A DNA stretch of 64,000 nucleotides from Polyangiaceae bacterium (GTDB taxonomy: Bacteria; Myxococcota_A; Polyangia; Polyangiales; Polyangiaceae), in contig JANXOF010000081.1 of NCBI GenBank assembly GCA_025353725.1, positions 62,001 through 126,000 of the forward strand, read 5' to 3'. The notes under the pieces were generated by a model, which was not told the DNA's origin, searched no databases, and worked only from the letters and a program-made list of their open reading frames with translations. Within the stretch, counting starts at the first letter, position 1, and the number at the start of each line of letters is the position of its first letter. A program made the translations under genes and the position numbers. Below, one piece after another: positions 2 to 11,303 of this stretch.

Positions 2-847
2 ACGCCCGACGCCGTCATCCATCTCGCTGCCGAGTCGCACGTGGATCGGTCGATTGATGGCCCCGCCGCATTCGTCCAAACCAACCTTGTGGGTACGTAT
101 ACGCTACTTCAAGCGGCCCGCACCCACTGGACGAGCCTTCCGTCCAATCAGCGCGACCTTTTCCGCTTCGTCAACGTTTCGACGGACGAAGTCTTTGGCT
201 CTCTGCCTCCCGACGGATGGTTCACGCCTCAGAGCGCATATGACCCCAATTCACCGTACTCCGCTACGAAAGCTGGGGCAGACCACCTTGTCCGGGCGTG
301 GCACGCCACGTTTAATCTGCCGACACTAACCACGAACTGTTCAAACAACTTCGGCCCGTTTCAGTTCCCAGAAAAGCTTATACCCGTGGTCATCTTAAAC
401 GCGCTCGAAGGGAATCCGTTGCCCGTTTACGGAGCCGGGGAGAATATTCGAGACTGGCTTTACGTGGACGATCACGCGGAAGCCCTTCTTGCCACACTCA
501 AGCGCGGTGTACCGGGCGAAACTTATCTCGTAGGTGCACGCAATCCGCGACGAAATATCGATGTCGTGCGAGCGCTGTGCGCGATTGTAGATGAGCTCGC
601 GCCAAGTCAAGCCATCGGGAAGCGCGAAACGCTCATTCACTTCGTGTCCGACCGACCGGGCCACGACTTTCGCTATGCTATCGACGCGACGGCTACCGAG
701 AAAGCTCTCGGTTGGCGTCCGAAGCATCCCTTCGAGGTCGCGCTCCGTGCGACGGTAGCCTGGTACCTCGAGAATCAATCCTGGTGCAAACGAATCGCTG
801 GCCGAAGTGGCCGGGAACGAATGGGCTTGGGGGCGCCGCGCTCGTGA
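2..847 (+). CDS. rfbB: dTDP-glucose 4,6-dehydratase, 5' end cut by window edge
   Basis: RfbB/RmlB converts dTDP-glucose to dTDP-4-keto-6-deoxyglucose in the cytoplasm, the branch point for many deoxysugars. The reading frame is open to the window edge and begins with [15 protein letters not shown], the typical short-chain dehydrogenase segment after the NAD-binding region, so roughly the first 70 residues lie outside. The catalytic Thr-Asp-Glu is seen in [10 protein letters not shown] and the YxxxK pair in PYSATKAG. The C-terminal [19 protein letters not shown] is typical of the family. The stop TGA overlaps the GTG start of rfbA (GTGA), indicating translational coupling. No rfbC or rfbD is visible, so the product need not become rhamnose. 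The identification is secure. Confidence 0.96.
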
Positions 848-1716
848 AGGGGATCATCCTGGCCGGCGGCGCGGGTACTCGCCTCTACCCCGCGACGCGG
901 ATCGTGAGCAAGCAGCTTCTGCCTGTCTATGACAAGCCGATGATCTACTATCCGCTTTCGACCCTAATGCTGGCTGGTATCCGGGAGATTCTCCTTATTT
1001 CCACGCCACAAGACCTCCCGCGATTCCAACAGTTGCTCGGCGATTGCCAGCAGTGGGGGCTTTCGATGACCTATGCCGAACAGGCGGTGCCTGATGGCTT
1101 GGCGAATGCCTTCGTCATCGGGCGGGACTTCGTCGGTAACGACTCCGTAGCGCTCATTTTAGGGGACAACATTTTTTATGGCGCAGGGTTGCATACAGCA
1201 CTAGCTGATGCGGCACGGCAGACGCATGGCGCTACAATATTTGGCTATTCCGTAAGTGACCCTGAGCGTTACGGCATCGTCGAACTTGATAAGAAAAATA
1301 ACGCATTATCTCTTGAGGAGAAGCCACAAAAACCGCGCTCCCACCAGGCCGTGGTCGGACTTTACTTTTACGACAATCAAGTTCTCGATTTCGCGACATC
1401 GCTCAAGCCTTCAGCGCGTGGCGAGTACGAGATTACAGACCTGAACCGAATTTATCTCGAGCGTAAAGCACTACGCGTAATTCGACTAGGGCGCGGAACA
1501 GCGTGGTTCGACACCGGCACTCACAAGTCACTACTCGACGCCTCGAGCTTCGTCGAGGTCATCGAGAGCCGACAAAATCAGAAGATCTCTTGCCCCGAAG
1601 AGATTGCTTGGCGCATGGGTTTCATCAACGATGGCGAACTCGCAAACCTCGCGGAGCCGCTGGCAAAGTCTTCGTATGGGCAGTACTTGTTGAAAATTCT
1701 TGAAGAAGGGCGCTAA
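844..1716 (+). CDS. rfbA: glucose-1-phosphate thymidylyltransferase
   Basis: RfbA/RmlA joins glucose-1-phosphate and dTTP to give dTDP-glucose, the substrate of the preceding dehydratase. The nucleotide-binding signature [15 protein letters not shown] follows the start directly, and [27 protein letters not shown] and EKPQKPRS are all family hallmarks. The GTG at 844 overlaps the rfbB stop by four bases and gives 290 residues, the usual RmlA length; an in-frame extension to 712 would add about 44 residues of unrelated sequence and was not used. With rfbB it forms a two-gene unit. The next gene is convergent, and no clear hairpin terminator is seen in the roughly 200 bases between them. Confidence 0.97.
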
Positions 1717-1919: not shown

Positions 1920-3587
1920 TCAACGGACAAGGTAGACTGCATACGATGGGCGCGTCTCAGCGAGAAGGCTGAGGCTGACTATCGCTTGATTAAGGGGCAA
2001 CTGTGGATATGCGCGGTCCACCACGACAAGGTCACCTGACTTGGCGTGATTCCTGAAGTACGCGGCGTCTGCCTCCGCGCGAGACAGCAGAGGAAAGATC
2101 CAAGGCGATGCCGTCAGAGGCCGACGGTATGCCATAAGGTAGCCAGCGGGCAGATCGTAGATAAAGAGGGCACGCTCGCCACGGCCGTAGGCTTGAATAT
2201 CGGCGGCAAGCAAGCGAAGGAACTCTTGCTTGGCCGGCGACGTATAGATACCTTTGTACGGTCCTACTTTCATGAGGGCGGTCAGGTCATCAAGACGCCC
2301 GTCGCGATACACGCAATCCTGCGTAACGCAGAACTCCAACAGGCTCCAAACAACGAGCGCTGGCGATAAGGCGAGGTAAGGACGGACTCTCGGCCAACCA
2401 CCTAAACGCAGGGTTTGATCAATAAACATCGCGAGAAGCATCGCCGTAAGGATCGCGCCCGGGTAGAGACCCAATCCAACGGCGACAATCCCATTTGAGC
2501 TACTCAAACCTGCGACAGCCCCGGCCACGCCTGAAGGCAGCGCAATGCCAAACACCAATACGCGCGCGGTCCGTCGATCACGGAGCCCCAGGGAGAGGAC
2601 CGGCCCTAACAACGCGAAACAGCTCACGAAACCAAGGCTTGCGATCGAACCCGGCATTTGCGAGCCCAAGGCGAGCCTCGGAAGGAACATGACTCCAACT
2701 GCCGTAAGCAAGGGAAAGCGCCGAGCGACCGTCAGCGCCACGGCGCTAAGAAATGCGGCCAATGGAAGCTGCGGATGTTGCGCGAGGAAGGCCGTAAGTT
2801 TCGACGCCGCTTCGGGCCACGTAAACGCCGCGACCGAGCCCGAACCGCCGGAATAGGCGAAGACGGCGCGGAGATGCGAGCCTGCAGCGAGGAAAAGCGG
2901 TGAGACAGCCAAGCAAAACGCGACTCCGCCCAAAGCATAAGTACAGCTCGCGCGCAACCGTTCACAAAGCGCGAGAACGAAGAGGACGGCCAGCGTCGCG
3001 ACAACGCCCAGAAGAAGCGAGGGATACGCGAAACAGCTTCCGGCGTGCGCAACCCCAGCCCAAAAAAGTGGTGCGCGGAGAAGACCTCGCGTGGGGTTGC
3101 CTAAAAGAAGCCAACGCGCGACGACGAACAACCCAAGGGCAAAAAGCCCCATCGACAGCGTGTTGTAGCTTAGCCCGGGAAGCCCGTAGGGAATGAAGCA
3201 GAGGCACGCGGTACCGACGAGAAGCGCCGCAGGTGACGAAAGGCGCGTTCGCGCGAGAGCGAACGCAGACCATCCGACCAGCCCGAAGAACACGAGGTAG
3301 AGAAGGCGGATAAAGAGAAAAAGCCCGGTCGAACTCCCAACAGCAAAGGTGTATGCCCGAACGAACGGATAAATCAGCAATCCCGCCGTCTGCGCGATGT
3401 TGAGCTCGTCAACGAACGGCCGATCACCGAGCGCGAACCGAAGCGGAAGAGCGAGATAGAATGCTTCATCGGTGATATCGAGACCGCGACGCATTCGCCA
3501 GACCATCAGTGCGGCGGCCGCTAGGCTAACAAGTACCGCGATAACGCCGCTGGGCGTTCGAAGAGTCGACCCGCGCGGCATTATCAA
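1920..3587 (-). CDS. polytopic membrane protein, GT-C glycosyltransferase-like
   Basis: This 555-residue protein is predicted to lie in the inner membrane with about ten or more hydrophobic segments. An early loop DITDEAFYLALPLRFALGD holds acidic residues after the first membrane helix, as in GT-C (PMT/ArnT-like) transferases that use polyprenyl-phosphate sugars. The start is TTG at 3587, overlapping the stop of the upstream GT2 gene as TTGA; an ATG lies two codons in, at 3581. The pairing with a DPM1-like GT2 suggests that the GT2 charges undecaprenyl phosphate and this protein, or a partner, transfers the sugar on the periplasmic side. The class is inferred from topology and context; a flippase or ligase role is possible. 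Confidence 0.6.
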   Translation of the reverse strand: MIMPRGSTLRTPSGVIAVLVSLAAAALMVWRMRRGLDITDEAFYLALPLRFALGDRPFVDELNIAQTAGLLIYPFVRAYTFAVGSSTGLFLFIRLLYLVFFGLVGWSAFALARTRLSSPAALLVGTACLCFIPYGLPGLSYNTLSMGLFALGLFVVARWLLLGNPTRGLLRAPLFWAGVAHAGSCFAYPSLLLGVVATLAVLFVLALCERLRASCTYALGGVAFCLAVSPLFLAAGSHLRAVFAYSGGSGSVAAFTWPEAASKLTAFLAQHPQLPLAAFLSAVALTVARRFPLLTAVGVMFLPRLALGSQMPGSIASLGFVSCFALLGPVLSLGLRDRRTARVLVFGIALPSGVAGAVAGLSSSNGIVAVGLGLYPGAILTAMLLAMFIDQTLRLGGWPRVRPYLALSPALVVWSLLEFCVTQDCVYRDGRLDDLTALMKVGPYKGIYTSPAKQEFLRLLAADIQAYGRGERALFIYDLPAGYLMAYRRPLTASPWIFPLLSRAEADAAYFRNHAKSGDLVVVDRAYPQLPLNQAIVSLSLLAETRPSYAVYLVR

Positions 3588-4552
3588 GGCAAATGCCTCG
3601 AATTATCTCCCAGATCGCCGAATGTCTCGCGCACGACAAAAAGCGGGCGACCCTGGACCTCGGCGAGGATGCGCCCGATGTACAAACACGCTACGCCGGT
3701 CACCATGACCTGAATACCGCCGATCAGCACAATCGCCGTGATTGTCGACAAGTAGCCAGGCAGGAAGGCGCGAAAGAAAAGCTTATCGACAATGAGCGCA
3801 AGGAGGAGCAGTACGCCAATGAGCACCACCAAGAATCCCAGCTTGACGGTCACTTTAAGTGGAAAGTCAGAGAACGAGATCACCGAATCGAGGGCCATCC
3901 GAAAGCGCCTGCGGAAGTTGTAACTCGACTTTCCAACTTTGCGCCGTTGATGAGTCACCGGAACGTGCCCGTAACGAAATCCAAGCCAAAGCTCGAGCCC
4001 CGGCAAAAACCGACTTCGCTCGGTGAGCGCGTTGTAAGCGTCGAGAAACTTGCGGTTCATTACGCGGACCGTCGAAGCATTGACAGGGCTGTTGTAACCC
4101 GTGAGGCGGTTCAAAACTAAGTTGAAGAGATACGAAGTCACCTTAGCGAACAGCGGAACATCACGCTTTGCGTAGAGACCACCCACGATGTCGAAGGTCT
4201 CTGTCTTCAAGGCGTCAATAAGTAAAAGGAGCTGACTAGGAGGGTCTTCCTGGTCAACATTAAGCATCCCGACGAACTGCCCGCGAGCGAAGCGGTAGCC
4301 GCACGAGATCGCCACATGTTGCCCAAAGTTACGACTCAGAACGACAAGCTTCGCAAACGGGAACTCGTCGCAAGCCTCTTTCACGAGACGTGCGGAGTCA
4401 TTCCGGCTCCCGTCGTCGACGAAGAGAACCTCCACTGCGCCTTCAATCTGGTCGCTCATCAAGTACTCGCGAAAGACTTTTTGCAGCTCAACGCAAAAAT
4501 CCCTCGCAAGGGCTCCGTCCCCGTAGATTGGCACTACAAACGAATAGATCAT
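3584..4552 (-). CDS. GT2 glycosyltransferase, DPM1/ArnC-like with C-terminal membrane helices
   Basis: This is a predicted polyprenyl-phosphate sugar synthase. The N-terminal GT-A domain shows MIYSFVVPIYGDG, the FVDDGSRNDSA nucleotide-binding stretch, SRNFGQHVAISCGYRFA and a metal-binding region VGMLNVDQEDPP, in which NVDQE replaces the common DADLQ. After about residue 230 come two hydrophobic helices (VTVKLGFLVVLIGVLLLL and TITAIVLIGGIQVMVTGVA) and the conserved ending YIGRILAEVQGRPLFVVRE. The ATG at 4552 was chosen because it starts right at the fold; the frame stays open to 4591. It heads a two-gene minus-strand unit with the following membrane protein and diverges from the PhyH gene. The sugar is unknown. 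Confidence 0.85.
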   Translation of the reverse strand: MIYSFVVPIYGDGALARDFCVELQKVFREYLMSDQIEGAVEVLFVDDGSRNDSARLVKEACDEFPFAKLVVLSRNFGQHVAISCGYRFARGQFVGMLNVDQEDPPSQLLLLIDALKTETFDIVGGLYAKRDVPLFAKVTSYLFNLVLNRLTGYNSPVNASTVRVMNRKFLDAYNALTERSRFLPGLELWLGFRYGHVPVTHQRRKVGKSSYNFRRRFRMALDSVISFSDFPLKVTVKLGFLVVLIGVLLLLALIVDKLFFRAFLPGYLSTITAIVLIGGIQVMVTGVACLYIGRILAEVQGRPLFVVRETFGDLGDNSRHLP

Positions 4553-4689: not shown

Positions 4690-5475
4690 ATGGAAACGCG
4701 AGCCGTCGACTCCGCCGCCATCGCGAGTGCCATCGCGGAGGAGGGCTTCCTTGTGGTACCCGACGTCCTCTCTGCGGAGTTCGTGGCGCGCGCACGACGC
4801 GAACTCGAGGTTGCCATCGCGCGTGAGGCTGAGTACCACGGAGGCGCGGGCTACAAGGACTACGGCATGGTTCTTGTTTGCTCACTCTATGGGGGAGCTT
4901 TTCTCGATGTTTTCGACCATCCAAAGCTTCTCGCGCCCCTTAGCGCCGTGCTCGGCGAAGGCCACATTGTCTACGCGTACACGTCGTCATCGATGCCTCC
5001 CGGCCGAACGAACTACTCCCGTCGCATCCACCGGGACTGTCCGCGGATGATTCCGGGGTACTGCACCAACATGGGGGCGACCGTGCTCCTCGACGACTTT
5101 ACCGAAGACAATGGAGCGACCTACTACCTTCCAGGCTCCCACCGTCAGGCAGCGGCACCCTCAGACGAGGAGTTTACGCGAAACGCGCGGCGGCTGGTCG
5201 CGCCCGCTGGCTCGGTCCTGTTTTTCGACGCACTCCTTTGGCATGCAGGCGGCGACAACCGCACCTCTTCTTGGAGACACGCACTCACGCTAAACATGTG
5301 CCGGCCCTTCATGAAGCAGCGTCTGGACCTCCCGCGCATCATGGCGAACATGGACCTCAGCGGAGTCTCCAAAGTCGCGCTGCAAAAACTCGGATTTCTC
5401 GCGCAAGTTCCAGCCTCTTACGACGAATACTACGCACCCGCTGAAAAGCGCAAATACCAACAAACGGTGGAGTGA
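4690..5475 (+). CDS. phytanoyl-CoA dioxygenase (PhyH) family protein
   Basis: This is a predicted non-haem iron, 2-oxoglutarate-dependent oxygenase of 261 residues. The iron-binding facial triad is visible: His114 and Asp116 in RRIHRDCPR, and His185 in LLWHAGGDN; Arg196 in SWRHALTLN is placed to bind 2-oxoglutarate. DNGATYYLPGSHR is the family signature between them. The ATG at 4690 starts the fold (AIAEEGFLVVPDVLS), and the longer frame to 4606 has no similarity. It is the first gene of a coupled plus-strand run with methyltransferase, acetyltransferase, WbqC and aminotransferase genes, so it probably hydroxylates or oxidises a sugar or lipid intermediate of the surface glycan. The substrate cannot be read from the sequence. 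Confidence 0.85.
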   Translation: METRAVDSAAIASAIAEEGFLVVPDVLSAEFVARARRELEVAIAREAEYHGGAGYKDYGMVLVCSLYGGAFLDVFDHPKLLAPLSAVLGEGHIVYAYTSSSMPPGRTNYSRRIHRDCPRMIPGYCTNMGATVLLDDFTEDNGATYYLPGSHRQAAAPSDEEFTRNARRLVAPAGSVLFFDALLWHAGGDNRTSSWRHALTLNMCRPFMKQRLDLPRIMANMDLSGVSKVALQKLGFLAQVPASYDEYYAPAEKRKYQQTVE

Positions 5476-6332
5476 TGAGCGACAAGTACAACGATGTTAT
5501 CCAGGCGAACATCAAAGTTCATTCGAAGCTCGCGTCTCTCTACGCGAAAACTGAGCCTCACTTCAAGACTGAGAACCTTGCGATTGTTGATGCCGCACTC
5601 AAACTTCTCGCGTCAGAGACCAACGCGAAGCACCTCCTGGACCTAGGCTGCGGCACCGGGTTCATCATCAACCTAGCGAAGCACCACGTCGGACACATCG
5701 TTGGCGTCGATGTCACACGAGCGATGCTCGACCAGGTCGATACGAGTGGTCCCGCGACCATCGAGCTTCACGAGCATGACACGGGTACCTTTCCGGCGGA
5801 GCCTGGGTCTTTCGACCTCGTTACGGCGTACTCCTTCCTCCATCACCTTTACGATATCGCGCCGACTTGCAGCACCGCCGCGAAGGCTCTCCGCAAGGGC
5901 GGGAAGTTTTACGCCGACCTCGACCCCAATTTCTACTTTTGGGAGTCCGTCAAAGCGCTCGAAAGCCATTCCGTGGAGGTCGCTTATGACTCCATCGTTA
6001 CGCGAGAAATAGCCGCCGTCGCACATAAAGATGACCAGATGAACGAAGAATACGGCATTCCTAATGCCGTATTCAACGACGCTGAATACGGCAAAGATAT
6101 CGCCGGAGGCTTCAAAGAAGCGGAGGTTCGCAAGACGCTTCTCTCAGCTGGCTTCACCGACGTGAAATTTAAGTACTATTGGTACCTAGGGCAAGCGTCA
6201 GTCGTGAATGACCCGACGAAATCGCGCGAAGAACGCCTCGTCAACGCCGAACTCGTAGACTCCGTGCTTCAAAAGGTGATGCCGCTTTCGCGGGCGCTTT
6301 ACAAGTACATCGGTTTTGTCGCGACGAAGTAA
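5475..6332 (+). CDS. class I SAM-dependent methyltransferase
   Basis: The protein has a Rossmann-type methyltransferase core: LLDLGCGTGFIINLAK (motif I), VGVDVTRAMLDQV, and FDLVTAYSFLHHLYD (motif IV region), followed by LRKGGKFYADLDPN. The last 120 residues are longer than in minimal members and may form a substrate cap. The ATG at 5475 shares one base with the PhyH stop; a GTG one codon upstream at 5472 would give a GTGA overlap. The stop TAA overlaps the next ATG (TAATG). It sits in the sugar-modification run and probably methylates a glycan precursor, possibly at a hydroxyl made by the PhyH protein. The coding sequence contains a strong 12-base-arm palindrome, listed separately. Confidence 0.85.
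   Translation: MSDKYNDVIQANIKVHSKLASLYAKTEPHFKTENLAIVDAALKLLASETNAKHLLDLGCGTGFIINLAKHHVGHIVGVDVTRAMLDQVDTSGPATIELHEHDTGTFPAEPGSFDLVTAYSFLHHLYDIAPTCSTAAKALRKGGKFYADLDPNFYFWESVKALESHSVEVAYDSIVTREIAAVAHKDDQMNEEYGIPNAVFNDAEYGKDIAGGFKEAEVRKTLLSAGFTDVKFKYYWYLGQASVVNDPTKSREERLVNAELVDSVLQKVMPLSRALYKYIGFVATK
6048..6074. repeat. perfect 12-bp palindrome with 3-base loop inside methyltransferase gene
   Basis: GAATACGGCATT (6048-6059), loop CCT, then AATGCCGTATTC (6063-6074). A third direct copy of GAATACGGCA lies at 6084-6093. The element is inside the coding region, where it encodes parts of EEYGIPNAVFNDAEYG. In mRNA it would form a very stable stem-loop. No function is known. Confidence 0.8.
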
Positions 6333-6838
6333 TGGTGAACGTCAGGCTTACCGACCTGACAACGGCGCACGCAGGCTCGATGTTTCGCTGGATGTGCGAT
6401 CCCGACGTGAGCAGGCACGTCGGGCTTCGTTCGGAGCCCACGCTCGAGAAAACGCTCGCCTGGCTCGGGCGAGCAGCGAGCGACAACCGCGTTTCGGCGC
6501 GCGCCATTTTGTTCGACGACGCGCACGTCGGCAATGTTGTGCTCGATCAAATCGACCTCGTTACTTCTAAAGCCCGCCTCTCGATCTACATCGGCGAGGC
6601 GGAGGCGCGCGGACGAGGGGTCGGGCGGCGCGCCGCGACTCTCGCCGTCGATCTCGCGTTTGGGTCACTCGGTCTCCACAAGGTGTGGCTTACCGTCCAC
6701 ACCGGAAACCACGCGGCCATCGCGACTTATAAGGCCATCGGTTTCGTGGTCGAAGGCACGCACCGCGAGGAGTTCATCCTCGATGGTACGCGCGTCGATG
6801 AACTTTACATGGGTCTTCTTAGGAGCGACCTGCCGTGA
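6332..6838 (+). CDS. GNAT family N-acetyltransferase (RimJ/RimL or PseH/WecD-like role)
   Basis: A 168-residue acetyltransferase of the RimJ/RimL type. The acetyl-CoA pyrophosphate-binding loop is ARGRGVGRRAATLAVDLAF, and the late strand-helix LTVHTGNHAAIATYKAIGF is the usual motif B. It starts at ATG 6332, which overlaps the previous stop, and its own stop overlaps the GTG of the WbqC-like gene. Beside a WecE-type aminotransferase, the natural reading is N-acetylation of the new 4-amino group of a dTDP-sugar, the step done by WecD in enterobacterial common antigen synthesis, although this protein is shorter than WecD and closer in style to PseH. That role is inference from context. Confidence 0.8.
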   Translation: MVNVRLTDLTTAHAGSMFRWMCDPDVSRHVGLRSEPTLEKTLAWLGRAASDNRVSARAILFDDAHVGNVVLDQIDLVTSKARLSIYIGEAEARGRGVGRRAATLAVDLAFGSLGLHKVWLTVHTGNHAAIATYKAIGFVVEGTHREEFILDGTRVDELYMGLLRSDLP

Positions 6839-7539
6839 ACTGCGTCGTCCTGCAGCCTTCGTTTCTACCCTGGCGAGGCGTCTTTCACCTTATCCAGCGT
6901 GCCGACGTCTTTGTCTTCTATGACGACGTCCAGTACGACAAGCACGGCTGGCGTAATCGAAACCGCATCAAAACGGCCGCTGGAACACAATGGCTTACTG
7001 TGCCCGTACTCGCGAAGGGCAACGTAGACACCGGTCTACCTATCAACGAAGTTCGCCTCGGGCGCACGGAGAACTGGCCGCGGAAGCATCTCGCTAGCCT
7101 CCGCCAAAGCTATAAAAAGGCACCCTTTTTCGACAAGTACTGGCCACTCGTCGAGTCGTTCTACGCAAACACACCGGAGACTCTCGCAGACTTCACGATT
7201 GACACGACGAAACAGCTCGCGCAGGCACTCGGACTTGCCAAAACGAAGTTCCTCCGGTCGTCCGAGCTGCAGGTAGTTGGCGTCAGGAACGACCGTTTAC
7301 TTTCCCTTCTCCAGAAGGTAGGCGCAACCCACTACATTAGTGGTCCTTCGGCGCAATCCTACATCGACGCCAACGCGTTCGCCGCAGCTCAGATTTCGCT
7401 TGAGTATCAAGTGTATGACTATCCAGAATACGTCCAGCTTTATCCGCCGTACGATCCGCAAGTGTCGGTGCTCGACCTTTTATTCATGAAGGGTGACGCC
7501 GCAGGAGAATGGATATGGGGAGCCGAGGCCACGCGATGA
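6835..7539 (+). CDS. WbqC-like family protein
   Basis: A 234-residue cytoplasmic protein with the hallmark N-terminus of the WbqC family (PF08889): LQPSFLPWRGVFHLI, then VFYDDVQYDKHGWRNRNRIK and WLTVPVLAKGN. Later the conserved THYISGPSAQSYID and the C-terminal PQVSVLDLLF are present. Family members sit in O-antigen and capsule loci beside sugar aminotransferases; their biochemical role is not established, and acyl or aminoacyl modification of amino sugars is only a guess. The GTG start at 6835 overlaps the GNAT stop, and its stop overlaps the aminotransferase ATG, so four consecutive genes are translationally coupled. Confidence 0.88.
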   Translation: MNCVVLQPSFLPWRGVFHLIQRADVFVFYDDVQYDKHGWRNRNRIKTAAGTQWLTVPVLAKGNVDTGLPINEVRLGRTENWPRKHLASLRQSYKKAPFFDKYWPLVESFYANTPETLADFTIDTTKQLAQALGLAKTKFLRSSELQVVGVRNDRLLSLLQKVGATHYISGPSAQSYIDANAFAAAQISLEYQVYDYPEYVQLYPPYDPQVSVLDLLFMKGDAAGEWIWGAEATR

Positions 7540-8672
7540 TTCCCTTCAATCAACCTGCGCTCTTCGGACGCGAGCAAGCCTATGTAAGCGAGGCGCTCGC
7601 AAGCCGACGCCTCTCGGGTGATGGTCGGTTTTGCAGACGGGGCGAGAAGCTCCTCGAGGAGACGCTCGGCGTGAAACGCGCCCTCCTCACCACGTCGTGC
7701 ACGCACGCGCTCGAGCTGAGTGCTTTCCTCCTCGACGTCGGCCCGGGAGACGAGGTCATCGTGCCGTCGTTTACGTTCGTCTCCTCGGTAAACGCGTTCG
7801 CGATCCGTGGTGCGAAGGCCGTCTTCGCGGACGTTCGGCCCGACACCCTGAACCTCGACGAGCAAAAGCTCGAGGGTCTCATCACGCCAAAGACGAAAGC
7901 CATTGTTCCCGTGCACTATGCAGGTGTCGGGTGCGAAATGGACATAATTCTCGCGATCGCGGCGACGCGAGGCGTCGCCGTTGTGGAGGACAACGCTCAC
8001 GGGCTTTACGGCTTGTACCGCGGGCGTCCGCTCGGGACCTTCGGGGCACTCGCGACGCAGTCTTTTCATGAAACCAAGAACATCACCTGCGGCGAGGGCG
8101 GCGCTCTGCTTGTCAACGATTCGGGAGCTCACTCCTTCGCGGCAAGGGCCGAAATTCTTAGGGAAAAAGGCACCAACCGGAGCCAGTTCTTCCGCGGACA
8201 GGTGGACAAGTACACATGGGTCGATGTGGGGTCGAGCTACGTTCTCTCCGAGCTCCTTGGCGCCGTCCTACTCGCTCAGCTCGAAGCACGGGTAGAGATT
8301 CAGCAACGCCGACGGGTCGTATGGGAGCGTTACGCGAATGAACTTGCGACTTGGGCCGAGACGGAGGGCGTGTTTCTTCCTACGGTGCCTAAGCACTGCG
8401 AGCAGGCGTTCCACATGTTTTACATGCTCCTGCCCGACCTCGCGCGGCGGAGTGCGTTCATTGAGCACCTCAAAGAACGCGGCGCGGCTGCGGTCTTTCA
8501 CTACTTGCCGCTTCACCTCTCCCCGATGGGGTTACGCTCGGGCGGCCGCGCGGGCGATTGTCCAATTACGGAATCAGTGAGTGACAGACTTGTTCGTCTG
8601 CCGTTTTACACAGAACTTTCAGAGGGTGACCAGGTCAAGGTTATCGAAGCCGTGAGGTCGTTTCGTGTCTGA
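7536..8672 (+). CDS. wecE: dTDP-4-amino-4,6-dideoxygalactose transaminase (WecE/RffA type)
   Basis: This PLP-dependent DegT/DnrJ/EryC1/StrS aminotransferase should convert dTDP-4-keto-6-deoxyglucose, made by RfbB, to dTDP-Fuc4N using glutamate. It resembles WecE along its length: MIPFNQPALFGREQAYV, SFTFVSSVNAFAIRGAK, IVPVHYAGVGCEMD and REKGTNRSQFFRGQVDKYTW. The PLP lysine is Lys181 in SFHETKNITCGEGG, the same number as in E. coli WecE. VEDNAHG carries the cofactor-binding aspartate. The ATG at 7536 gives an ATGA overlap with the WbqC stop; an upstream in-frame start at 7509 is less likely. At 378 residues it has the normal length. Confidence 0.92.
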   Translation: MIPFNQPALFGREQAYVSEALASRRLSGDGRFCRRGEKLLEETLGVKRALLTTSCTHALELSAFLLDVGPGDEVIVPSFTFVSSVNAFAIRGAKAVFADVRPDTLNLDEQKLEGLITPKTKAIVPVHYAGVGCEMDIILAIAATRGVAVVEDNAHGLYGLYRGRPLGTFGALATQSFHETKNITCGEGGALLVNDSGAHSFAARAEILREKGTNRSQFFRGQVDKYTWVDVGSSYVLSELLGAVLLAQLEARVEIQQRRRVVWERYANELATWAETEGVFLPTVPKHCEQAFHMFYMLLPDLARRSAFIEHLKERGAAAVFHYLPLHLSPMGLRSGGRAGDCPITESVSDRLVRLPFYTELSEGDQVKVIEAVRSFRV

Positions 8673-9441
8673 TGACGTTAGCTACGATCCCTCCTACTTC
8701 GCTCCTATCGCGGAGGCCGAGGACAAGCACTTCTGGTTTAAGGCGCGCCGTACGATTCTCAAACGGCTGTTAGAGCAGATAAAGACGACGACGACGCCTG
8801 GGTCCCACGTGCTCGAGGTAGGCTGCGGAACTGGCAACGTCACCAGGGTCTTGGTCGATGTTTTCGGCTCTGCCTCCGTCATCGCGATGGACCCCTGGGA
8901 GAATGCGGTTCGCATCGCACAACGCAGACTTCCGTGCAAAGTGGTTGTCGGAGATCTCAACGCACGCGGACCGGAGGTCGAGGGCACCTTCGCGGTCGTC
9001 GGCATGTTTGACGTGCTCGAGCACTTGGAGCACGAGCGCGCCTCGCTCGATGCGGCGTACCAACTGGTTGCTCCAGGCGGTTGCCTCATACTCACTGTGC
9101 CTGCACACCAAAGTCTCTGGAGTTACTTCGATGAAGAGGCTGGTCATTTTCGTCGTTACGAGCGCGAAAGTCTTTCGGCCGCACTGGAGCGCTCTGGGTT
9201 CCGTGTCGAGTATGTGAGCGAGCTATTTCCTTTGCTTTTTCCTATGATGTGGCTTGGACGACGGCTCTCGACGTTGCGGGGAGACCAAAAGCCCGACAAG
9301 GAGAAGGTCCTCGGTGAACTCAAGACCGTTCCTATCGCGAACGAACTCCTCACGTGGGCGCTAAGTCGTCAGGCGTCGTGGGTCGAGAAGCGCCGCGAGA
9401 CACGCCTCGGAACCTCGGTGGTCGCGATTGCGAGGCGCTAA
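8665..9441 (+). CDS. class I SAM-dependent methyltransferase
   Basis: A 258-residue methyltransferase with motif I HVLEVGCGTGNVTRVL, GMFDVLEHLEHERASLDAA and the post-motif loop LVAPGGCLILTVPAHQSLWS followed by GHFRRYERESL. The last two are typical of methyltransferases found in polysaccharide and polyprenyl-lipid loci. A hydrophobic stretch LFPLLFPMMWLG near residue 190 could dip into the membrane. It starts at GTG 8665, overlapping the aminotransferase stop by eight bases. It is the last gene of the coupled run; the next gene is 77 bases away. The target is unknown: a sugar hydroxyl or a lipid-linked glycan. Confidence 0.82.
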   Translation: MSDDVSYDPSYFAPIAEAEDKHFWFKARRTILKRLLEQIKTTTTPGSHVLEVGCGTGNVTRVLVDVFGSASVIAMDPWENAVRIAQRRLPCKVVVGDLNARGPEVEGTFAVVGMFDVLEHLEHERASLDAAYQLVAPGGCLILTVPAHQSLWSYFDEEAGHFRRYERESLSAALERSGFRVEYVSELFPLLFPMMWLGRRLSTLRGDQKPDKEKVLGELKTVPIANELLTWALSRQASWVEKRRETRLGTSVVAIARR

Positions 9442-9518: not shown

Positions 9519-11303
9519 ATGCGCGGTTCTGAGGCGACGCTTCGCCCGCGCGGGTTGCGGTTTGCGCTGATCCTAGCGCTCGCCTCCGTCATTTTCTTCG
9601 TGGTGTGGTGGCCCATGTTCCGGAACTACCCCGGGACGCCCATCGAAGACGGCCACTACTTTTTTCATCAAGTCGAGGTGAGCAAAGTGGCCCTTTGGCG
9701 GTTCCACGAACTTCCGCTGTGGAACCCGTTCGACTGTCGGGGGATCCCCATGTGGGACCATCCCGAGAACATCACGGCGTCACCGCTCTTTTATCTCACG
9801 CTGCCCTTTAGCGCCGGCGTGACGATCATCGTGTGGAACATGGCACACGCCGTCGTCGGTTTTTTCGGGATGTGGCTTCTTTGCCGCGACGACCTCAAGC
9901 TCTCGCGCGCCGCCACGTTCGTTGCGGCTGTCGCGTGGACGTTCGGGACCGTGCACAACCAGTATGCCGGCGAGCACGAAGCGTTTATTTCGTTTTATCA
10001 TGCGCCGCTGCTTCTTTTCGCGTGGCGGCGCGCGGAAACATCGTGGAACTGGGCGGTTGGCACGGGATTGCTGCTTGCGCTCATGGTCTACGATGGCGCG
10101 ACGTATCCGTTGCCGCTCACGGTGGTATTCCTCGGAATTGAGACGCTTACACGGCTCAGAACGCCACGGCGGGCATTGCGGCTAGCATGCGCGGCAGCCG
10201 TCGTTGGTCTCGTTTCGTTCTCCGTGGGCGCGAGTCGAATACTCACGATTCAAGACCAGTTCTCTTCACACAACCGCGTCATGGAGGACGACTGGGACCA
10301 CCTCGCGCGGATCAAAACCTGGGCCGATATGTACTTGCTCCGGTCGCCACACTGGCGATCCCGCGTCGCCGATCAGCAATACGTGCTTGGCGAATACCAC
10401 GCCTACATAGGTTTTTTAGGGCTCGCGCTGCTCGTTCTCGGCGTTGCGTCAACGCTCTTCGAGACGTGGTGGCTCCTCTTTACAGCATTGGTTCTCGTCG
10501 TTCTGATGCTTGGACATTTTTCGAGCTACGCACCGTGGACGCTTCTCCACACGCATGTCCCGCCCTTCAAAGCGATGCGTGTTCCCGCACGTTTCAGGTT
10601 GCTTCTCGCACTCCCGATTGCGCTCTACATGGGTTATGCGATCGACCGCGTTCCCGCTGCGTTTCGAAGATGGCTGGGTAAGCCTGGCCTCGCTGACGCC
10701 GTACGCGTCGCGCTTCTGGGGATAGGCATGGTCGCGGCGGGAGACAGCGCCGGACTCTTTACCGAAATTCTCGAATACCGCTTCACAGACCCAGCTCCCG
10801 TGCAGACAGCCTCCTCCACCCGTTTTTACTACGGCGGGTCGGATCTCTCACCCGACGTTGCCAATCAACCACGTCAAAACCACGCGTGGTTGGGATGCCG
10901 TGGGAGTTGGGCGTACAACGCCGATGCTCAGCTTTGGCAGGGTGACGTGCCACAAGCACGCGCAGTCGATGACGGCGCGACGGTCGAAGTCGCCAATCGT
11001 ACGCACAATACGTTCACTGTCGATGTCAACGTCACGCGGCCAAGCCGTATTCACCTCAATAGCGCGCACGAACGCGGATGGCAGTCGACGATGGGGACCG
11101 TCGTTGACGACAAGCATGTCCTTGCGCTTGACCTTCCCGTCGGGCACCACCGGGTGAGCCTTCGCTATTGGCCACGCCGCCTTACGATCGGCTTGTGGAT
11201 CTCCGCGCTCGGCTTTGTGGCATCCGTGGCTTTCCTCGTTCGGCAACGCGCCGCCGCACTGTGGCGACCGAAGCGGGAGCCTAGGGTTATGCCGTCACGA
11301 TGA
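9519..11303 (+). CDS. large membrane protein, YfhO/GT-C-like
   Basis: This 594-residue protein has about twelve predicted membrane helices and a soluble C-terminal beta-rich part (about residues 440-560) before a final helix. The loop after helix 1 reads HELPLWNPFDCRGIPMWD, a pattern typical of YfhO-like (PF09586) membrane proteins, which are thought to be GT-C fold transferases that modify teichoic acids or other glycans with polyprenyl-linked sugars. It follows the sugar-decoration run in the same direction. Its 3' end overlaps the convergent GT2 gene by nine bases. The C-terminal VDVNVTRPSRIHLNSAHERG and RVSLRYWPRRLTIG match the usual tail of this family. The exact reaction is not known. 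Confidence 0.7.
   Translation: MRGSEATLRPRGLRFALILALASVIFFVVWWPMFRNYPGTPIEDGHYFFHQVEVSKVALWRFHELPLWNPFDCRGIPMWDHPENITASPLFYLTLPFSAGVTIIVWNMAHAVVGFFGMWLLCRDDLKLSRAATFVAAVAWTFGTVHNQYAGEHEAFISFYHAPLLLFAWRRAETSWNWAVGTGLLLALMVYDGATYPLPLTVVFLGIETLTRLRTPRRALRLACAAAVVGLVSFSVGASRILTIQDQFSSHNRVMEDDWDHLARIKTWADMYLLRSPHWRSRVADQQYVLGEYHAYIGFLGLALLVLGVASTLFETWWLLFTALVLVVLMLGHFSSYAPWTLLHTHVPPFKAMRVPARFRLLLALPIALYMGYAIDRVPAAFRRWLGKPGLADAVRVALLGIGMVAAGDSAGLFTEILEYRFTDPAPVQTASSTRFYYGGSDLSPDVANQPRQNHAWLGCRGSWAYNADAQLWQGDVPQARAVDDGATVEVANRTHNTFTVDVNVTRPSRIHLNSAHERGWQSTMGTVVDDKHVLALDLPVGHHRVSLRYWPRRLTIGLWISALGFVASVAFLVRQRAAALWRPKREPRVMPSR

Follow-up and report, generated by a model that had tools for sequence, protein, structure and literature searches.

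A recurrent oxygenase-methyltransferase-WbqC-WecE gene cassette, with WbqC as a candidate amino-acid ligase for a 4-amino sugar

The 64,000-nt stretch of Polyangiaceae bacterium DNA analyzed here (the window; G000:C51:62001-126000, from a source assembly of 6.6 Mb in 98 contigs) carries a run of six genes encoding a PhyH-family oxygenase, a methyltransferase (MT1), a GNAT N-acyltransferase, a WbqC protein, the aminotransferase WecE, and a second methyltransferase (MT2). A first-pass annotation, made from the sequence alone, had described these as a compact sugar-decoration cassette of six same-strand genes, and all six open reading frames are found on the + strand. Direct reading of the sequence also confirmed the five overlapping junctions that it listed (TGATG, 5473-5477; TAATG, 6330-6334; GTGA, 6835-6838; ATGA, 7536-7539; and an 8-base overlap, 8665-8672). 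It further placed RfbA and RfbB just upstream as suppliers of the sugar precursor. Such a feed is plausible, with RfbA heading the operon in one related locus (L155) and RfbA/RfbB lying near the cassette in another (L156), but in the window two minus-strand genes, for GT2 and a membrane protein (1920-3587), separate RfbA/RfbB from the run. The likely start of GT2 lies head to head with PhyH, 137 bases apart.

Table 1. Genes in and around the cassette, in window coordinates
Gene product	Position	Strand	Basis
RfbB, dTDP-glucose 4,6-dehydratase, C-terminal part; start upstream of the window, continues in L096	1..847	+	NCBIfam NF007582/TIGR01181 matches
RfbA, glucose-1-phosphate thymidylyltransferase	844..1716 (about)	+	TIGR01207 462.8 bits, above cut-off 360.65
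Polytopic membrane protein coupled to GT2, possible GT-C glycosyltransferase	1920..3587	-	No Pfam match; overlaps GT2 stop
GT2, ArnC/PgfS-like polyprenyl-phosphate sugar transferase, divergent from PhyH	3584..4552	-	Pfam, NCBIfam
PhyH-family Fe(II)/2-oxoglutarate oxygenase	4690..5475	+	PF05721 82.2 bits
MT1, class I S-adenosylmethionine (SAM) methyltransferase	5475..6332	+	Pfam
GNAT N-acyltransferase, PseH-like	6332..6838	+	Pfam, NCBIfam
WbqC, GTG start	6835..7539	+	PF08889 253.6 bits, gathering cut-off 21.3
WecE, dTDP-4-amino-4,6-dideoxygalactose transaminase	7536..8672	+	NF008687, TIGR02379; Pfam DegT
MT2, class I SAM methyltransferase, GTG start	8665..9441	+	Pfam
YfhO/GT-C-like membrane protein, possible transferase	9519..11303	+	No Pfam match; paralogue in L096 at 26.9%

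Close relatives of the window PhyH occur in six further genomes, at identities of 69% (G843), 64% (G213), 62% (G058, locus L016, a Cytophagales), 61% (G071), 54% (G822), and 45% (G812); beyond these, no full-length match exceeds 37%. The resulting seven carriers of PhyH and MT1, G000 included, range from Myxococcota-like bacteria to the one Cytophagales, and WbqC and WecE are present in all seven. An N-acyltransferase is seen in six of the seven, the exception being G822, where the contig stops within WecE. The grouping is more than chance, since six other genomes have an orthologous set, and the claim that it forms a real module is upheld by the shared PhyH, MT1, WbqC, WecE, and N-acyltransferase; neither is the gene set confined to one genome nor was the PhyH found to be orthologous to an enzyme of known unrelated substrate.

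The gene order of the window is itself found in L155 (G843), where RfbA directly precedes PhyH, MT1, GNAT, WbqC, and WecE and a PMT_2 membrane protein adjoins the cassette. Elsewhere the order varies. L016 reads GT2, PhyH, MT1, WbqC, a hexapeptide acetyltransferase, and WecE, all in the same direction; in L137 (G213) and L138 (G071) the core genes are present but a NeuD/VioB-like acetyltransferase takes the place of the GNAT (the L138 contig starts at PhyH, so that any GT2 would be out of view). In L156 (G822), WecE-WbqC runs divergently to PhyH; MT1-GT2 and RfbA/RfbB also lie within 13 kb. G812 divides the set between L157 (GT2-MT1-PhyH) and L258 (GNAT-WbqC-WecE). We considered L157, which lacks WbqC, as a counter-case and dropped it, since GNAT-WbqC-WecE lies elsewhere in the same genome. 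Order, strand, and even linkage vary while the set of functions stays, and because G812 holds the set in two separate loci, the link between PhyH/MT1 and WbqC is functional and not only positional.

Conservation also redraws the boundaries of the cassette. Orthologues of MT1 are 40-77% identical, and the gene adjoins PhyH in L016, L138, L155, and L157. The divergent GT2 is a core member as well, with copies 54-66% identical adjoining PhyH/MT1 in L016, L137, and L156, whereas MT2, coupled to the run here but conserved elsewhere at only 28-33%, has no clear place in the core and was set aside as a member of it. WbqC is rare in the phylum (12 of 188 genomes), and neither it nor a PhyH of the window type was found in the 11 genus mates searched, an absence that suggests gain of the cassette by transfer. 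A second, diverged PhyH (27% identical to that of the window) lies beside a NeuD-like acetyltransferase at L137:16228-17049.

WecE scores above the curated cut-offs for transaminases that form 4-amino-4,6-dideoxygalactose (Fuc4N; NF008687, 535.8 versus 375; TIGR02379, 499.9 versus 434.85), in agreement with the aminating role first given to it. Because all four complete sister copies tested pass these cut-offs too, the base sugar, judged by enzyme family, is most likely Fuc4N. The GNAT is closest to PseH (TIGR03585) yet falls below the cut-off (61.3 versus 93.1), and may work as PseH does. In L016, L137, and L138 it is exchanged for an unrelated enzyme of the NeuD/PglB/VioB-like kind; N-acyl transfer is therefore retained independently of one fold. 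The first-pass view had the GNAT acetylate the sugar amine; its target is instead probably an amino acid added by WbqC.

The family libraries used assign no function to WbqC, and comparison of its sequence with solved structures found nothing credible. We built an AlphaFold2 model from 23 homologues (mean predicted local distance difference test score (pLDDT) 92.8). Using VIA-align, for which Z scores of 7-8 are quoted as typical of unmatched models, the best solved match was BshC (4wbd; Z 14.3 over 219 of 234 residues, root-mean-square deviation 3.3), followed by class I lysyl-tRNA synthetase (Z 12.4) and tyrosyl-tRNA synthetase (Z about 10); Foldseek alone gave no match to the model at E <= 0.001. 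Across most of WbqC, the predicted fold is like that of HUP/class I aminoacyl-tRNA synthetase (aaRS) proteins. BshC ligates cysteine to a derivative of glucosamine, and the class I aaRS-derived ligases typified by BshC and MshC resemble WbqC in its predicted fold and, for BshC, in the amino-sugar substrate proposed for it. Unlike BshC, WbqC has no GQQ motif and is under half as long.

A second line of evidence comes from 5426 complete Escherichia coli genomes searched at the DNA level. WbqC was found in 23, comprising 13 O121-type and 10 O123/O186-type clusters and no other cluster type. In both types the WbqC gene overlaps the DegT-family aminotransferase gene directly before it by 4 bases, and a GNAT gene follows one or two genes later. 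The repeat units of Shigella dysenteriae 7/E. coli O121 bear N-acetylglycyl on 4-amino-4,6-dideoxyglucose (Qui4N), and those of E. coli O123 bear N-[(S)-3-hydroxybutanoyl]-D-alanyl on the same sugar (PMC10609480, PMC3210612); in both solved structures the amino acid is amide-linked to N-4 (PMC10609480). VioA-type aminotransferases match in 171 E. coli genomes. The O7, O39, O49, and O116 clusters that we read contain VioA and no annotated WbqC, and three of the four have an acyltransferase gene beside VioA; acetyl is cited for O116 in PMC3210612. In E. coli, WbqC goes with aminoacyl groups and not with plain acyl ones. Because this genotype-glycan correlation accompanies the fold match, WbqC is best explained as an amino-acid:amino-sugar ligase, a function that we propose from the model and from analogy. 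No paper with WbqC as the subject of its title or abstract, and none on ligases of aminoacyl sugars, was found in a search that excluded subscription journals and most O-antigen reviews, where an earlier suggestion is possible.

The O121/S. dysenteriae 7 and O123/O186 clusters share with the window RfbA/RfbB, a 4-aminotransferase gene overlapping that for WbqC by 4 bases, a GNAT, and a 4-amino-4,6-dideoxyhexose product. They differ in their VioA/DesI-like aminotransferase, which yields Qui4N where the WecE type yields Fuc4N, and the stretch read has no PhyH, methyltransferase, or ArnC-like GT2 and a WbqC only 25-26% identical. One strain named O103 (E. coli ML775, NZ_CP193495.1) has an O121-type DegT-WbqC-GNAT, pointing to a mismatch of label and cluster or to two clusters. 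A plasmid cluster (L254; E. coli AB66 plasmid 5, 5971-9417) combines DegT, GNAT, a 1-aminocyclopropane-1-carboxylate-deaminase-like protein, and an ATP-grasp protein that may replace WbqC as amino-acid ligase.

In the pathway we propose, RfbA and RfbB would form dTDP-4-keto-6-deoxyglucose and WecE would aminate it to dTDP-Fuc4N, as is the chemistry of these families. WbqC would then use ATP to activate an amino acid, or an acid similar to one, and join it to the 4-amine, and the free amine of the attached amino acid would be acylated by the GNAT, or by the NeuD/VioB-type enzymes of sister loci, as E. coli O121 and O123 suggest. PhyH may hydroxylate and MT1 methylate the product, with the amino-acid part as the likeliest site; this is the weakest step, and we infer both the sites and the order of the steps. 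GT2 would load the finished sugar on undecaprenyl phosphate, and a GT-C enzyme would transfer it outside the cytoplasm. That the cassette makes Fuc4N with a decorated amino acid on its 4-amine by this route is, in our judgment, evenly balanced. Slightly below that we place the wider proposal that WbqC proteins (PF08889) are widespread tRNA-independent, aaRS-like ligases loading amino acids onto nucleotide amino sugars, and that aminoacyl-Fuc4N is here hydroxylated by PhyH and methylated by MT1 into an undescribed sugar. The hydroxylated, methylated Fuc4NAc derivative first suggested keeps its Fuc4N base, and is better described as Fuc4N with a modified N-acyl-aminoacyl group, though the ring itself could still be hydroxylated or methylated. 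Many bacterial surface sugars bear amide-linked amino acids and WbqC is common near such genes; fold match, E. coli correlation, and conserved cassette together supply a concrete WbqC function to assay. If correct, it would explain how aminoacyl groups are attached and make aminoacyl sugars predictable from genomes, with the PhyH/MT1 pair predicting hydroxylated, methylated versions.

The iron triad and 2-oxoglutarate (2OG) arginine of PhyH (H114, D116, H185, R196) are invariant in 17 sequences, and its AlphaFold2 model (pLDDT 89) matches natural-product 2OG oxygenases with Z scores of 22-26, many about equally, giving no substrate pointer. AviO1, EvdMO1, and kanamycin B dioxygenase are among its structurally solved relatives; assignment as ectoine hydroxylase was rejected (TIGR02408, 23.7 versus a cut-off of 336.5). 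Hydroxylated, methylated oxoprolyl groups on amino sugars are chemically known, and the glycans of Vibrio anguillarum V-123, Plesiomonas shigelloides O74, and Vibrio cholerae O5, which we liken by their chemistry, carry amino-acid-derived groups that are hydroxylated and methylated and sit on 3- or 4-amino-dideoxy sugars (PMC10609480).

Several observations weigh against a ligase role for WbqC or against the product proposed. Such a GNAT might just as well act directly on the amine of the sugar and acetylate it, depriving WbqC of its proposed substrate. A profile of 23 BshC sequences gave no significant match to WbqC (hhalign probability 0.3%), so the relation to BshC is one of predicted fold only; the sole profile match is a Y-[IV]-x-G-x-x segment, no aaRS or BshC (PF10079) Pfam match appeared at an E limit of 10, and the class I aaRS HIGH signature is absent, a conserved N-terminal QP-x3-P-x2-G standing in its place. 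The E. coli correlation comprises two positive O-types, whose WbqC genes do not detect each other by DNA search, such that divergent copies may be missed, and the window WbqC, which shares only 26% identity with the O121 protein and 25% with that of O123, seems to belong to another subgroup. Among 27 gammaproteobacterial WbqC loci, DegT lies within about 1.5 kb in 11, often overlapping, but the other 16 have no DegT in the 1.5 kb retrieved to either side. The sole genetic precedent for the methylation, VioM, places the methyl on the sugar, as 2-O-methylviosamine (PMC3927599).

Some of these points fit an alternative in which the GNAT turns Fuc4N into Fuc4NAc by acetylation, the sugar itself is the target of both PhyH hydroxylation and MT1/MT2 methylation, and WbqC is an unrelated helper. 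PseH, the closest relative of the GNAT, is a 4-amine acetyltransferase, as are the NeuD/PglB/VioB-like families that replace it, and AviO1, EvdMO1, and kanamycin B dioxygenase act on sugar-containing molecules. The enterobacterial common antigen branch, in which WecE and WecD make dTDP-Fuc4NAc, starts from RfbA/RfbB precursors and a WecE of the family whose cut-offs are passed here, but the window adds WbqC, PhyH, MT1, and the ArnC/PgfS-type GT2. In the Pseudomonas syringae flagellin viosamine island (VioA, VioB, VioM, VioT), a 4-amino-4,6-dideoxyhexose is N-acylated and VioM methylates the modified viosamine, though the acyl group is built by acyl carrier protein and ketoacyl enzymes and no WbqC or PhyH is named (PMC3927599). 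We regard this alternative as unlikely: it leaves unexplained a WbqC kept in every copy, E. coli WbqC follows aminoacyl rather than plain acyl groups, and an oxygenase is superfluous for plain O-methylation of Fuc4NAc.

Two further readings seem to us distinctly improbable. The product might be a small soluble metabolite or peptide-like compound and not a surface glycan, with PhyH, MT1, and WbqC acting on amino-acid-like intermediates and RfbA/RfbB incidental. The nearest solved PhyH relatives are indeed natural-product oxygenases, and a Wenzhouxiangella locus (L019:3753-12419), which looks like a small peptide pathway, combines WbqC with a Mur-ligase-like protein, two GNATs, two PhyH, a LysA-like decarboxylase, and a PylC-like ATP-grasp protein and has no DegT; yet every genome found retains a Fuc4N-type WecE with the cassette, the ArnC/PgfS-like GT2 adjoins it, and RfbA heads the L155 operon. 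Alternatively, WbqC could be a transferase or ligase for acyl or aminoacyl groups acting on a sugar hydroxyl or another amine, such that the parts are right and the step order wrong. The best known proteins with class I aaRS-like folds esterify sugar hydroxyls, and the GNAT or NeuD could block the 4-amine first. This is countered by the amide linkage to N-4 in both solved E. coli structures (PMC10609480).

Under the aminoacyl-Fuc4N pathway that we favor, the sugar need not enter an O-antigen. GT2 lies below its equivalog cut-offs (PgfS, 177.2 versus 500; ArnC, 141 versus 529) with a similar architecture, and together with the flanking membrane proteins it suggests a lipid-linked sugar used outside the cytoplasm. 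Two large membrane proteins, at window 9519-11303 and L096:8784-10397, are related to each other, flank the cassette region, and are possible GT-C transferases.

PhyH occurs in 3 of the 27 gammaproteobacterial WbqC loci. In L238:6717-11319 and L239:6004-10606, DegT, PhyH, methyltransferase, WbqC, an unknown protein, and GNAT form one run near flagellin-like genes and are likely flagellin glycan genes, and in Cupriavidus metallidurans DegT-WbqC and PhyH-methyltransferase lie within 5 kb. Because these loci also combine them with WbqC, PhyH and a methyltransferase joined WbqC more than once, and PhyH is optional for WbqC generally. The window PhyH had no match among annotated phages. A 96 kb IMG/VR contig classed as viral (IMGVR_UViG_3300037264_006128; L171-L174) carries adjacent GNAT (46%) and WbqC (58%) genes closely related to those of the window, beside glycosyltransferase-like genes and a short DegT-like gene.

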